Below, piece after piece: positions 40,203-45,184 of a stretch of DNA of 45,184 nucleotides; position 1 is the first letter of the stretch, and every line of letters begins with the position of its first letter. The translations under genes and the position numbers were made by a program. The notes beneath the pieces are model-generated. The model was not told where the DNA came from and made no database searches. It was given only the letters and a program-made list of their open reading frames with translations. The DNA is from an uncultured Merdimonas sp. (GTDB lineage Bacteria; Bacillota; Clostridia; Lachnospirales; Lachnospiraceae), in the NCBI GenBank assembly GCA_944375725.1, contig CALWAZ010000093.1, forward strand, positions 1 through 45,184. Direction: 5' to 3'.

Positions 40203-41213
40203 TTACAGCAGATTTACGCCTCTGCGGGCCGCTTCTTCCCGCACTTCGTCAGGCCAGATGGATACCTGAACCTCGCCGATATGGGCTTTCCGCAGATAAA
40301 ACATGCAGATACGTGACTGGCCGATGCCGCCGCCGATGGTATAGGGAAGCTTTTTCTCCAGAATGGCCTTCTGGAAGGGAAGCTCTGCCCGTTCCTCACA
40401 GCCGGCCAGTTTCAGCTGGCGGGCCAGGGAATCCTCGTCCACGCGGATACCCATGGAAGACAGCTCCAGCGCATGGCCCAGAACCGGATACCATACGATA
40501 ATATCGCCGTTTAAGTGCCAGTCGTCATAGTCCGGAGCGCGGCCGTCATGAGGCTTGCCATCCAGAAGCTTATCTCCGATCTCCATCAGGAAAACAGCTC
40601 CCTTTTCCTTCGTGATCAGATCTTCCCGTTCCTTGGGAGTCTTATCCGGATAGCGGTCTGCCAGCTCCTGGGTGGTGATGAAATAGATATCCTTCGGCAG
40701 AATTTCCTCGATATAGTCATACTGGATAGACATATATTTTTCTGTCTTTTTCAGCGCCTTATAGACCTTGCGGACGGTATCCTTTAAGTATTCCACGTTC
40801 CGGTCTTCCTTCAGGATAATCTTTTCCCAGTCCCACTGATCTACATAAATGGAGTGGATATTGTCTGTGTCCTCATCCCGGCGGATGGCGCTCATGTCTG
40901 TGTAAAGTCCCTCTCCGATGTGAAAGCCGTACTGCTTCAGGGCATTGCGCTTCCATTTGGCAAGAGAATGGACGATTTCAGCCGGGCGGTCATTCTGTTC
41001 CTTGATTCCAAAGGTAACAGGGCGCTCCACGCCGTTCAGATTGTCATTGAGTCCGGATTCCGGCGTGACAAACAGGGGAGCGGAAACGCGTAGCAGATAA
41101 AGCTGTTCCGCAAGTGTCTTCTGAAAAAAATCCTTGACCGTCTTAATGGCTATCTGGGTGTCATAGAGGCTTAAGCCAGAAGAGTAGCCGGACGGTATGT
41201 ACAAATGTTCCAT
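40203..41213 (-). CDS. asnA: Aspartate-ammonia ligase (asparagine synthetase A)
   Basis: Makes free asparagine from aspartate, ammonia and ATP through an aspartyl-adenylate. The 336 residues carry the AsnA markers: TPESGLNDNLNGVERPV, IVHSLAKWKRNAL, YTDMSAIRRDE, SIYVDQWDWEKII and GGGIGQSR. It resembles class II aspartyl-tRNA synthetases but has no anticodon domain. The ATG at 41213 is the usual AsnA start. It is divergent from the tRNA-dependent asparagine operon, with overlapping promoters, and has a leader of about 218 bases. The leader lacks a T-box; it has a GC-rich hairpin followed by TTTTTT at a distance, which might be an attenuator. Confidence 0.96.
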   Translation of the reverse strand: MEHLYIPSGYSSGLSLYDTQIAIKTVKDFFQKTLAEQLYLLRVSAPLFVTPESGLNDNLNGVERPVTFGIKEQNDRPAEIVHSLAKWKRNALKQYGFHIGEGLYTDMSAIRRDEDTDNIHSIYVDQWDWEKIILKEDRNVEYLKDTVRKVYKALKKTEKYMSIQYDYIEEILPKDIYFITTQELADRYPDKTPKEREDLITKEKGAVFLMEIGDKLLDGKPHDGRAPDYDDWHLNGDIIVWYPVLGHALELSSMGIRVDEDSLARQLKLAGCEERAELPFQKAILEKKLPYTIGGGIGQSRICMFYLRKAHIGEVQVSIWPDEVREEAARRGVNLL

Positions 41214-41391
41214 AAAAATCTACTCCTGTCATTGATATGGTTTATGCTTCCGCTGTCAGAGTAAGGGGAGTGTTTCCGAAAGGATCCTCTGAATACGGAG
41301 GCGGATACAGAATATGATGCAAGAAATATTTCGGCTGAATTCGGAGCGGAGCGAAAAAATTCCTGAAAGCTTCCGCAGGACGGAAAAAGCC

Positions 41392-41466
41392 TTGCAATCA
41401 AAAAAAATCTATGCTAATATTTCTCGCATATAAAGGAATTATACTATAAGTAAATGCAAAGAACAA
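41392..41466. promoter_or_regulatory. Overlapping divergent promoters of asnA and the aspS2 operon
   Basis: On the minus strand TTGTTC (41461-41466), 17 bp and TATAAT (41438-41443) form a good asnA promoter. On the plus strand two candidates exist: TATACT (41440-41445), whose -35 is poor, or TTGCAA (41392-41397), 17 bp and TAATAT (41415-41420). Either one overlaps or directly abuts the asnA promoter. Confidence 0.55.
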
Positions 41467-41847
41467 GACTCGGATCTTCAGAGGCCGACAGGAATAAGAC
41501 GTCACCGACTGAGAGCGTCTTTGGGAAGAGGAGATTAGCCGGAGCCTTTCGGAAGCAGTTTAGTCTGCGGAAGGATACGGCGGGCGGGAACACTTGGGAG
41601 CAGATCGTCTGAACAGGCAGAAGCGGAAGCAGAAAGCGGGCAGTAGGGCGGTACGGAAGCCTCCGTTACGGGCAAGAGTGGGAGAGTGAGCCGATATCCG
41701 GTTCTGTGTGTTTTTGGAGTATGCCGGACAGACAGAGTAAGGATAAAAGCGGACGCTTTTCAATGCGGGTGGTACCGCGGGATTTTTATCAATGTGAAAT
41801 AAGAACCCCGTCCCGGAATAGAAATATTCCGGGACGGGGATTTTTTT
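41452..41847 (+). ncRNA. T-box leader controlling the tRNA-dependent asparagine operon
   Basis: The T-box sequence is at 41761-41780 with GGGTGGTACCGCGG. It is followed by a terminator: a 15-bp stem (41806-41820 with 41825-41839), a GAAA loop and seven U's (41841-41847). A stem II-type conserved segment with the CCGTTAC element lies at 41647-41675. Stem I must be within 41452-41640. The best specifier candidate is GAAC at 41588-41591, before a TTGGGAGC stretch; another GAAC is at 41611-41614. AAC would pair with tRNA(Asn). Uncharged tRNA should stabilise the antiterminator and allow expression of the downstream genes. I could not fold stem I with certainty. Confidence 0.9.
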
Positions 41848-41903
41848 GTATCGATTCCACAAAAAGCTGCTCCGCCCGGAAGAACAGAAAGGAGCCAGAG
41901 CAT

Positions 41904-43235
41904 ATGGAATTTATGACAGGAATCAGAGAAAAGGAAACGGTGGGCCTGACGGCCCTTACTTCCGCAGACATGGAAGGGAAAACAGTAAAGACGGAAGGAA
42001 CCGTCCATACCATCCGGGATATGGGCGAGGTGGCATTTGTAATTCTGCGGAGCCGGGAAGGACTTCTGCAGTGCGTCTATGAGGAAGGGAAATCAGGTTT
42101 TGCTCTGAAGAAGCTGAAAGAGGCAGCCTGTGTGGAAGCAGAAGGAACCGTCCGCCGGGAAGAGAGAGCGCCCCACGGCGTGGAGCTCCGCTTAACCGGA
42201 CTGAAGGTACTTTCCGAGCCGGCGGCGCCCCTGCCCCTTGCCATTTCCAAATGGAAGCTGAACACTTCCCTGGAAGCCAAGCTGAACATGAGGTCCGTGT
42301 CCTTGCGGAACATCCGGGAGCGCGCGAAGTTCCGGATTCAGGAAGGCATCGTGCGGGGGTTCCGGGATTTCCTGTACAGCCAGGGATTTACCGAGATTCA
42401 CACCCCGAAGATCGGGGCCAAGGGAGCAGAGGGCGGTTCCAACCTGTTCCGTCTGGATTATTTCCATCATCCGGCTGTGCTGGCCCAGAGCCCGCAGTTT
42501 TACAAGCAGATGATGGTAGGCGTGTTTGACCGGGTATTTGAGACGGGTCCTGTGTTCCGCGCCGAAAAACACAACACCAAGCGCCATCTGAATGAATATA
42601 CCAGCCTGGATTTTGAGATGGGCTATATCGACAGCTTTGAGGATATTATGGCGATGGAGACCGGGTTTCTGCAGTACATGCTGGCTCTTCTGGAAAAGGA
42701 ATACGCACCGGAGCTGAAAATTCTTGATATTACGCTGCCGAAGGCAGATAAAATTCCGGCAGTGCGCTTCGACGAGGCAAAGCGGCTGGCTTCCGAAAAA
42801 TACGGCCACAAAATCCGCAACCCCTACGATCTGGAGCCGGAAGAGGAGGTTCTGATCGGACGCTGTTTCCAGGAGGAGTACGGCTCTGATTTTGTATTTG
42901 TAACCCATTACCCATCCAAGAAACGTCCTTTCTATGCCATGGACGATCCGGCGGACCCGAAATTTACCTTAAGCTTTGACCTGCTGTACAAGGGCCTGGA
43001 GATCACCACAGGGGGCCAGCGCATCCATGACTATCAGATGCTTCTCGACAAGATAGCGGCCAGAGGCATGACAGAAGAAGGAATGGAGCAGTATCTGGAT
43101 ACCTTCAAATACGGCATGCCGCCCCATGGAGGCCTTGGCATCGGCCTGGAGCGTCTGACCATGAAACTGGTGGGCGAAGACAACGTCCGTGAGACGACAC
43201 TGTTCCCGAGAGACTTAAGCAGACTGGAGCCTTAG
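41904..43235 (+). CDS. aspS2: Archaeal-type aspartyl-tRNA synthetase, probably nondiscriminating (Asp-tRNA(Asn) forming)
   Basis: A 443-residue class II synthetase with an N-terminal anticodon-binding OB fold and a catalytic core. FTEIHTPKIGAKGAEGG and LAQSPQFYKQMM, motif 2 (FRAEKHNTKRHLNEYTSLD) and motif 3 (GIGLERLTM) match archaeal-type AspRS rather than AsnRS (whose equivalent usually reads QSGQLY) or the bacterial AspRS, which is about 590 residues. Clostridia use such a second AspRS to charge tRNA(Asn) with aspartate, which GatCAB then amidates. That fits the downstream gatC and gatA genes and the T-box in front. It may be annotated as AsnRS by mistake. The ATG at 41904 follows AAAGGAG, after the T-box terminator. 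Confidence 0.88.
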   Translation: MEFMTGIREKETVGLTALTSADMEGKTVKTEGTVHTIRDMGEVAFVILRSREGLLQCVYEEGKSGFALKKLKEAACVEAEGTVRREERAPHGVELRLTGLKVLSEPAAPLPLAISKWKLNTSLEAKLNMRSVSLRNIRERAKFRIQEGIVRGFRDFLYSQGFTEIHTPKIGAKGAEGGSNLFRLDYFHHPAVLAQSPQFYKQMMVGVFDRVFETGPVFRAEKHNTKRHLNEYTSLDFEMGYIDSFEDIMAMETGFLQYMLALLEKEYAPELKILDITLPKADKIPAVRFDEAKRLASEKYGHKIRNPYDLEPEEEVLIGRCFQEEYGSDFVFVTHYPSKKRPFYAMDDPADPKFTLSFDLLYKGLEITTGGQRIHDYQMLLDKIAARGMTEEGMEQYLDTFKYGMPPHGGLGIGLERLTMKLVGEDNVRETTLFPRDLSRLEP

Positions 43236-43450: not shown

Positions 43451-43744
43451 ATGGCAAATATCATTTCAGACGAAACCATGGAATACGTAGGAATTCTGGC
43501 GAAGCTGGAGCTGTCCGACGCGGAAACGGAAGCGGCGAAGCGTGACATGGGCCGGATGCTGGATTATATTGATAAATTAAACGAGCTGGACACATCGGGC
43601 GTGGAGCCCATGTCCCATGTGTTCCCGGTGAGCAATGTTTTCCGGGAGGACGTGGTGGAAAACGGCGATGAGCATGAGAAGATGCTGGCGAACGCGCCGA
43701 AGGTCAAGGACGGCATGTATCAGGTGCCGAAGACGGTAGAGTAG
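43451..43744 (+). CDS. gatC: Asp-tRNA(Asn)/Glu-tRNA(Gln) amidotransferase subunit C
   Basis: The small GatCAB subunit (97 residues), which helps GatA fold and clamps the GatA-GatB interface. It has the conserved ISDETMEYVGILAKLELS start, MLDYIDKLNELDTSGVEPMSHV and the end FREDVV...ANAPKVKDGMYQVPK. The ATG at 43451 follows AAAGGAG; an in-frame start further up at 43409 lacks a ribosome site and is not needed. The gatA start follows 11 bases after the stop. Confidence 0.95.
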   Translation: MANIISDETMEYVGILAKLELSDAETEAAKRDMGRMLDYIDKLNELDTSGVEPMSHVFPVSNVFREDVVENGDEHEKMLANAPKVKDGMYQVPKTVE

Positions 43745-43755
43745 GAGGCGGCAGT

Positions 43756-45184
43756 ATGGAATGGATGGAAATGACAGCTGCAGAGCTGGGAAAGAAGATT
43801 CAGGCAGGGGAGCTTACAGCGGTGGACGCCGCAAAGGCAGCCCTTGAAAAAATAAAGGAAAAAGACGGAGAGCTGAACTGCTTCGTCACAGTGGACGAGG
43901 AGGACGCGCTTGCAAGAGCCGCCAGAGTTCAGGAGAAGATCGAGAGCGGAGAGCTGACCGGCCCCCTGGCAGGCGTGCCGGCAGCGGTCAAAGACAATAT
44001 CTGCACGGAAGGCGTGCTGACCACCTGCTCCTCAAAGATTCTGTACAACTTTAAGCCCACCTACTCGGCGGAAGCGGCCCTGCGGCTGGAGCAGGCAGGC
44101 ATGGTCATGATTGGAAAGACCAACATGGACGAATTTGCCATGGGAAGCACCACGGAGACCTCCTTTTTCGGTCCCACCCGCAATCCCTGGAATATGGAGC
44201 ATGTGCCAGGCGGTTCCTCCGGCGGTTCCTGCGCCGCGGTGGCCGCGGGCGAGTGCAGCTGCGCTCTGGGTTCTGATACGGGCGGTTCTATCCGCCAGCC
44301 CAGTTCCTTCTGCGGCGTGACGGGACTGAAGCCCACCTATGGAACTGTATCCCGGTATGGACTGATTGCCTACGGCTCCTCTCTGGATCAGATTGGACCC
44401 ATCGCCAGAGACGTGACGGACTGCGCTCTGCTGCTGGAGGCCATTGCTTCCCACGATAAAAAAGACAGCACGTCTATCGCCCGTGAAAGCTATGACTTTA
44501 CTTCAGCGCTAAAGGATGATGTAAAGGGGATGCGTATCGGTATTCCCCGTGATTATTTCGGGGACGGACTGGATCCGGAGGTGGCGGCGGCTGTCCGCGG
44601 CGCGGCAGAAGCGCTCAAAGACCGAGGAGCAGTCGTGGAGGAATTTGATCTAAGCCTGGTAGATTACGCGATTCCGGCCTACTACGTCATCGCTTCGGCG
44701 GAGGCCAGCTCCAACCTGGCCCGTTTTGACGGAGTAAAGTACGGATACCGGGCGGAGGAATATGAGGGACTCCACAACATGTACAAGAAATCCCGTTCCG
44801 AGGGCTTCGGCGAGGAAGTGAAGCGCCGTATCATGCTGGGATCTTTCGTGTTAAGCTCCGGCTATTATGATGCCTATTATCTGAAAGCGCTTCGGACCAA
44901 GGCGCTGATCCGCCAGGCTTTTGACCGGGCGTTTGAGAAATACGATGTGATTCTTGGACCTGCGGCTCCCACTACAGCGCCCAAGCTTGGAGAATCCTTA
45001 AGCGATCCGCTGAAAATGTATCTGGGTGATATTTATACGATCTCCGCCAATCTGGCCGGACTTCCGGGTATCTGCCTGCCCTGCAGTACGGACAGCAGGG
45101 GGCTGCCCATCGGTCTGCAGCTTCTGGGAGACTGTTTCCAGGAAAAGAAAATCATCCAGACAGCCTATACCTATGAAGGTGTCC
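43756..45184 (+). CDS. gatA: Asp-tRNA(Asn)/Glu-tRNA(Gln) amidotransferase subunit A, truncated by window end
   Basis: Amidase subunit that releases ammonia from glutamine or asparagine for transfer to Asp-tRNA(Asn) or Glu-tRNA(Gln). The first 476 residues are visible, close to the full length of about 490; the 3' end and presumably gatB lie beyond the window. The Ser-Ser-Lys catalytic triad is intact: K79 (AAVKDN), S154 (PGGSSGGS) and S178 (DTGGSIRQP), the same numbers as in well-studied GatA. AGGAGG precedes the ATG at 43756. The gene is the third of the T-box operon after aspS2 and gatC. Confidence 0.96.
   Translation, partial: MEWMEMTAAELGKKIQAGELTAVDAAKAALEKIKEKDGELNCFVTVDEEDALARAARVQEKIESGELTGPLAGVPAAVKDNICTEGVLTTCSSKILYNFKPTYSAEAALRLEQAGMVMIGKTNMDEFAMGSTTETSFFGPTRNPWNMEHVPGGSSGGSCAAVAAGECSCALGSDTGGSIRQPSSFCGVTGLKPTYGTVSRYGLIAYGSSLDQIGPIARDVTDCALLLEAIASHDKKDSTSIARESYDFTSALKDDVKGMRIGIPRDYFGDGLDPEVAAAVRGAAEALKDRGAVVEEFDLSLVDYAIPAYYVIASAEASSNLARFDGVKYGYRAEEYEGLHNMYKKSRSEGFGEEVKRRIMLGSFVLSSGYYDAYYLKALRTKALIRQAFDRAFEKYDVILGPAAPTTAPKLGESLSDPLKMYLGDIYTISANLAGLPGICLPCSTDSRGLPIGLQLLGDCFQEKKIIQTAYTYEGV

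Follow-up and report, generated by a model that had tools for sequence, protein, structure and literature searches.

A T-box leader that is probably specific for tRNA-Asn and lacks the stem I S-turn precedes aspS2-gatC-gatA in an uncultured Merdimonas sp.

The 45,184-nucleotide stretch of DNA analyzed here (the window) contains a T-box leader at positions 41455–41839, located 5′ of aspS2-gatC-gatA and between the divergent genes asnA and aspS2. As judged from its sequence and those of its relatives, the leader is very probably a T-box riboswitch that attenuates transcription and responds specifically to tRNA-Asn. This assignment is favored because the codon in the specifier loop is AAC or AAU followed by a purine in all 86 distinct aligned rows, because the codon keeps the ordinary T-box register, because the product of aspS2 is an aspartate--tRNA(Asn) ligase, and because the discriminator base of tRNA-Asn is G73. 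The leaders of other families that retain the S-turn also have AAC, which was counted in favor of the reading of Asn. In the Lachnospiraceae leaders found, the S-turn of stem I is replaced by a predicted CUC:GGG helix, a conserved structural variant of the decoding site.

The gene divergent from the operon, asnA (40203–41213, reverse strand), matches TIGR00669 with 381.6 bits (cut-off 292.8). On the forward strand, aspS2 (41904–43235), encoding aspartate--tRNA(Asn) ligase, a non-discriminating AspRS, matches TIGR00458 with 429.8 bits (cut-off 368.4) and NF003483 with 573.7 bits (cut-off 353); its start was placed by our choice at the ATG at 41904, and the open frame extends further upstream. 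It is followed on the same strand by gatC (43451–43744; TIGR00135, 94.7 bits, cut-off 47.1) and gatA (43756–45183; TIGR00132, 622.8 bits, cut-off 481.1), which runs past the end of the window. With asnA divergent from aspS2, the intergenic region within 40203–41903 is common to two routes for making Asn, and a promoter scan of 41214–41903 found none. A second gatA, 97% identical to that of the window, is located in the same genome near a contig end (C165:14018–15442), and may be a second copy or come from strains mixed in the assembly. The genome also encodes GlnRS (729.5 bits, cut-off 425.8) and AsnRS (655 bits, cut-off 342.6); among the 38 genomes examined, GlnRS scores above the curated cut-off in 33 and AsnRS in 28. 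The operon would place Asp on tRNA-Asn and then amidate it, giving the cell a route to Asn on the tRNA itself, in addition to AsnRS and asnA. By analogy with other T-boxes, uncharged tRNA-Asn, which has the anticodon GUU and G73, would pair with AAC in the specifier loop and with the UGGU bulge, the latter with a wobble at G73. The bound tRNA-Asn would stabilize the antiterminator and so permit transcription into aspS2-gatC-gatA.

The hallmarks of a T-box, namely a UGGN bulge with antiterminator and terminator, an S-turn in stem II, and a stem IIA/B region, are all present in the window. The T-box sequence GCGGGUGGUACCGCGGGA (41765–41782, forward strand) forms the 5′ part of the antiterminator with the bulge UGGU, and a 15-pair intrinsic terminator hairpin with a T-run lies at 41806–41839; the two elements bear out the T-box that the preliminary description of this DNA had placed before aspS2-gatC-gatA. 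Stem II (41604–41652) has seven pairs in the window, formed by AUCGUCU 41604–41610 and GGGCGGU 41646–41652, which enclose an S-turn of GAA 41611–41613 and AGUA 41642–41645. At least five pairs of stem II are formed in 88 of 93 distinct leaders, which were collected with an expression requiring GAAC or GAAU and are biased towards these; the base 3′ of the stem II GAA is C in 50 of them, A in 18, G in 14 and U in six, and in five no stem was found. The stem IIA/B region with CCGUUA (41653–41668) was aligned to the Rfam T-box model. This model (RF00230), with which the preliminary description had proposed to check the leader, does match the window, at 41571–41818 and with stem I skipped, at a score of 40.8 bits, which is below the gathering cut-off of 93 bits; this cut-off serves for searching and marks no biological limit. 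In a search of the whole window, no Rfam family reached its own cut-off. All 15 sampled relatives score 50.5–91.2 bits with the T-box model, likewise below 93, which means that leaders of the S-turn-less type can escape Rfam's curated threshold.

The comparison is based on 117 Lachnospiraceae aspS2 upstream regions, drawn from the top of ranked match lists that covered 9 of the 16 genomes in one case, 97 of the 299 matching genomes (30 loci) in another, and 80 of 581 in a third. Among the matches listed, a stem I segment was recognized in 103 of the 117 regions by the expression that required GAAC or GAAU, which biases this set, and the 73 leaders left after de-duplication, to those tetramers. 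Inspected by eye, the remaining 14 regions have no T-box or lie on truncated contigs, and L096 is a T-box without stem I. Sixty of the 73 leaders were aligned with few gaps, and the 13 omitted include five leaders with side arms, among them that of the window, and eight that are divergent or odd; the covariation figures therefore refer to leaders that are more regular than the whole set. Most of the eight return in a second set of 86 distinct rows, derived from 93 matches in 100 sources by a model that applied no GAAC filter but was trained on those sequences. Alignment A1, in which L012 and L015 are wrongly placed at the 3′ end, is excluded from the counts.

Stem I of the window (41455–41602), as drawn from the consensus of the 60 relatives, contains a K-turn base in which UGC 41455–41457 pairs with GCA 41600–41602, a helix below the specifier loop, the loop itself, a three-pair helix above it, a distal arm, and a side arm. 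The helix below the loop is formed by CAAG 41464–41467 and CUUG 41593–41596, with two-sided changes in all four pairs. It varies as a unit (AGAG/CUCU, CAAG/CUUG, CGGG/CCCG, GGAA/UUCC, CAGG/CCUG), and its lowest pair is A·C in ten of the 60 rows. Just above the loop, CUC 41469–41471 occupies the usual place of the S-turn strand AGUA and pairs with GGG 41586–41588. In the 60-row set, the first pair of this helix is C-G and the second U-G without exception, and the third is C-G in 57 rows, U-A in two, and G-U in one. In the 86-row set, the first pair is C-G in all 85 scorable rows, the second is U-G in 79, G·A in five and A·A in one, and the third is C-G in 74. A further helix of stem I is formed by AUCUUC 41474–41479 and GGAGAU 41530–41535. 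The conserved distal-arm bulge GACAGGAAU (41487–41495) occupies the position that CAGAGAG has in the genome's own cysE-cysS leader; by this comparison, it would be one half of an elbow-docking module. The distal hairpin (41496–41521), in which six of the seven stem pairs have two-sided changes, carries the loop CACCGACUGAGA at the position of CACCGGCUGAAA in that cysE-cysS leader. We considered whether the distal loop ACCGACUGAG could base-pair with the D-loop of tRNA-Asn and rejected this, as the tRNA-Asn of the genome has no complementary match of at least five bases. A novel upstream aptamer was rejected as well, as the same bulge and loop occur in the genome's own cysE-cysS leader and in the cysE, pheS and valS leaders of relatives.

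The proposed stem I pairs 91.6% of the cells in the 60-leader alignment, with two-sided changes in 21 of 26 pairs. None of 500 shuffles scored as high on any of five measures, and slid versions of the structure paired 40–54%. RNAalifold, applied to the 60 relatives with no structure supplied, arrived at the main helices and the specifier loop of the proposed stem I. When segment 41455–41602 was folded alone and unconstrained, it formed the loop of A41468 and AACA 41589–41592 at −38.4 kcal/mol. Folds of 41450–41847 and 41465–41790 preferred other pairings, and the proposed stem I was absent from them; the fold of 41465–41790 was no more stable than those of its shuffles (z 0.41). The side arm (41538–41584) is formed by GCCG 41538–41541 and CGGC 41578–41581 with a linker GGG, and is absent from most relatives. 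Model R1, built without the side-arm leaders, put the 3′ strand of the window in the side arm, ending at 41557, and not at 41586–41602, a misplacement that we attribute to the side arm (41538–41581). The placement of the 3′ strand in the window is based on its match to relatives and on the fold of 41455–41602. Sequence and covariation together reveal a K-turn-like base, a small loop with AAC and a purine, a distal arm, the S-turn of stem II, the UGGU bulge and the terminator.

The specifier loop consists of A41468 opposite A41589-A41590-C41591-A41592, in which the Asn codon AAC (41589–41591, forward strand) precedes the purine A41592. Among the matches listed, the loop reads AACA in 81 of the 86 rows, AACG in four, and AAUA in one (L093), AAU being the other Asn codon. 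The base before the specifier, G41588, pairs with C41469; it is G in 86 of 86 rows, and its partner is C in 85 and a gap in one. Because G41588 is part of the CUC:GGG helix, the G before AAC is read as a structural base of that helix. AAC keeps the ordinary register of codon, purine, four pairs and GGAGC. The genome's own cysE-cysS leader (L003) reads GAA-G-UGC-A-UUCG-GGAGC, with the codon UGC, and the pheS leader of a relative (L215) reads GAA-U-UUC-A-CUCG-GGAGC, with the codon UUC. An ACU specifier with GAA as the S-turn would leave no helix before GGAGC, and is ruled out by the alignment. The preliminary description had drawn attention to two GAAC tetramers on the specifier strand. Both are present, at 41588–41591 and 41611–41614; however, only the first lies on that strand, and the second belongs to the S-turn of stem II. 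Since about 1.6 GAAC are expected per 400 random bases, the tetramers alone are meaningless, and it is their conservation that is informative. The same description had proposed AAC as a codon of the specifier strand, which agrees with the alignment of Lachnospiraceae relatives that places AAC in the loop; the alignment of leaders that it suggested supplies the stem I model that it lacked, with AAC as the codon in register.

The same AAC site is also found 5′ of AspRS1-type genes and, in L198, 5′ of gatC. The AspRS1-type sites in G037, G213 and G271 have gatA about 2.3 kb downstream on the same contig. The expression found GAAC in 32 of 33 family loci, missing L228, which nevertheless shows GGGGAACA. 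Outside the family, the hisS-like leader L229 has an S-turn-less loop that reads GGAAC-A, so that a codon for Asn stands 5′ of a His gene; this counts against the reading of Asn, since AAC appears not to be confined to leaders of Asn-pathway genes.

An S-turn above the specifier in stem I is usual in T-boxes, although not universal. In the window, the S-turn AGUA/GAA of stem I is absent, and the 5′ strand reads A-CUC and the 3′ strand GGG-AAC. A survey upstream of gatA in the class covered 55 stretches and gave ten T-box-like matches, of which L283 is spurious; the other nine are gat-operon leaders of other families, with L253 from the same taxonomic order, and have AGUA and GAA-G-AAC in an ordinary S-turn loop with the codon in the same register. 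Leaders with and without the S-turn that share the codon and the kind of operon constitute a natural comparison set for the function of the S-turn. S-turn-less sites with codons other than those for Asn seem to occur too: by eye, C precedes GAC in the hisS-like leader L239, U precedes GAC in L231, and U precedes ACC in the thrS leader L232. L239 and L231 have GACAC on the specifier strand, in which codons for Asp (GAC) and His (CAC) overlap. tRNA-Asn normally carries the bulky t6A beside its anticodon, and the Asn leaders described here do without the S-turn despite this modification. According to excerpts of PMC7583486, the stem I S-turn, located above the specifier, keeps modified bases of the tRNA from clashing. 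The literature searched, mostly papers available without subscription, contained no S-turn-less Asn T-boxes of Lachnospiraceae, and we do not claim that they are absent from print.

The discriminator bases given here were taken by visual inspection from the output of ARAGORN. In the genome of the window, tRNA-Glu(UUC) has A73, and tRNA-Asn and tRNA-Trp have G73. A73 of tRNA-Glu(UUC) was found in 28 of 28 readable genomes, of 37 searched, and G73 of tRNA-Asn in ten of ten readable genomes. Among the matches listed, duplicates included, the bulge is UGGU in 101 of the 103 leaders of Lachnospiraceae aspS2 genes, and UGGC in L061 and L098; six apparent UGGA bulges were misparses, in which the true T-box has UGGU. 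The wobble of UGGU with G73 that had been envisaged for this leader is consistent with the G73 of the genome's tRNA-Asn. UGGU is compatible both with G73 of tRNA-Asn, by wobble, and with A73 of tRNA-Glu(UUC), whereas UGGC mismatches A73 of tRNA-Glu, and the resulting C·A mismatch would be expected to block the sensing of Glu. It speaks against the reading of Asn that U forms only a wobble with G73, as compared with UGGC in the genome's own trpE-like leader. However, two Trp-type leaders of the genome differ, with UGGC in the trpE-like L009 and UGGU in L002, and U occurs at this position in 46% of Trp T-boxes according to excerpts of the TBDB paper (PMC7778990); UGGU facing a tRNA with G73 is therefore not odd.

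The preliminary description had raised a possible dual specifier with overlapping GAA and AAC codons. In such a specifier, tRNA-Asn would read AAC and tRNA-Glu(UUC), once C41469-G41588 opens, would read GAA, so that the operon balances two amino acids. This is unlikely. It is true that all 86 distinct rows have GAAC or GAAU, that GAA and AAC overlap on the specifier strand of this leader, that the prevailing UGGU pairs with A73 of tRNA-Glu(UUC) and wobbles with G73 of tRNA-Asn, and that a T-box with two codons has been reported for the transamidation operon of C. acetobutylicum (PMC4052509, in excerpts). However, the pairing of G41588 with C41469 means that both codons are not free in the loop, and the purine expected after a codon (A or G) follows AAC in every row, whereas the base after GAA would be C or U. 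Furthermore, GAAC is retained with UGGC in eight of eight compact AspRS1 leaders, picked out visually among the hits of a model (A73 of tRNA-Glu was read in five of these genomes, G236, G446, G581, G565 and G469), and in three of nine S-turn leaders (L279, L290 and L298; A73 was read in G463, G518 and G576). It is also retained in the family of G430, where the first bulge is UGGC in 19 of the 25 leaders in which a bulge was found; 30 were examined, and five gave no bulge. L302 and L367 come from the same genome. The tRNA-Glu of this family was read in G430 alone, where the first bulge is UGGU. GAAC therefore does not track compatibility with Glu. A G before the codon also occurs, with no dual logic, in 12 of 13 Cys leaders counted by script, in a control that covers only 46 T-boxes found by a strict expression, some of them doubtful (L237). 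AAC without the preceding G, a case that the preliminary description had set against its own proposal, occurs in one related leader of the G430 family, L392, where A replaces G in GAA-A-AAC (GAAAAAC), and is absent from the 86 Lachnospiraceae rows; the other 29 of the 30 have GAA-G-AAC, and in L372 the script picked a second GAAAAAC that lies between two T-boxes. The metabolic argument for a dual sensor is weakened by the presence of both GlnRS and AsnRS in the genome, which means that GatCAB is not required for Gln-tRNA, yet it may still make it. The dual specifier is thus unsupported, and a conserved GAAC alone is no evidence of dual sensing of Asn and Glu.

It is quite improbable that the C41469-G41588 pair acts as a gate, presenting AAC to tRNA-Asn when closed and, when melted, letting tRNA-Glu(UUC) read GAA after a one-base slip, with UGGU serving both G73 and A73; if it does, the lineage would have exchanged the S-turn for a C-G/U-G/C-G helix that is weak and can be switched. 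The chance is very small that the leader is a former Asn T-box partly decayed in this strain by the side arm, with the operon no longer tightly controlled. The Rfam score of the window is the lowest of the 16 leaders tested (those of the 15 relatives are given above), its 47-base insert is lacking in most relatives, and whole-leader folds miss stem I. However, all blocks are intact, as are the bulge and the terminator, and L015, L016, L078, L081 and L120 carry different arms at this position; the side arm is absent in L013, L014 and L017. The start of the side arm, CGGAGCCUUUCGGAAGCAG, resembles the true 3′ strand, CGGGAACACUUGGGAGCAG, and the arm is perhaps a decayed duplication.

Fourteen of the 30 leaders of the family of G430 combine a single stem I, with GAA-G-AAC, and two T-box bulges 3′ of it, at most about 500 bases before aspS2 (L367–L371, L373–L376, L379–L381, L386 and L389). 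According to a script, a hairpin and a T-run follow each bulge. The order is UGGU then UGGC in L367, L368, L379 and L386, and UGGC then UGGU in L376; nine leaders have UGGC twice. Partly doubled T-boxes are known.

The leader can be compared with several known systems. A T-box controls the tRNA-dependent amidation operon of C. acetobutylicum, which encodes an extra AspRS and GatCAB (PMC4052509, PMC4206432, both in excerpts). As described there, the operon logic is the same as in the window and AsnRS is also present, and overlapping Asn and Glu codon positions are reported in the specifier loop. By contrast, in a comparison by description with these excerpts, the Lachnospiraceae leaders have a paired G before AAC and no S-turn in stem I. 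In the family of G430, the leaders read GAA-N-AAC. Ordinary S-turn T-boxes (RF00230; L003) share with the window the K-turn base, the register, the distal arm, the S-turn of stem II, stem IIA/B, the bulge and the terminator, whereas in the window the AGUA/GAA S-turn is replaced by CUC:GGG and the score falls below the Rfam cut-off. The compact AspRS1 leaders (L223, L230, L234, L236, L247, L248, L249 and L251), which are strongly conserved and occur in several families of the class, resemble the window in having GGG-AAC-R without an S-turn, a distal arm and a T-box; however, they differ from it in the UGGC bulge and, by eye, have no K-turn and no stem II. An Asn T-box on the AspRS–GatCAB route is thus of a known kind, and the S-turn-less decoding site is a new structural variant.
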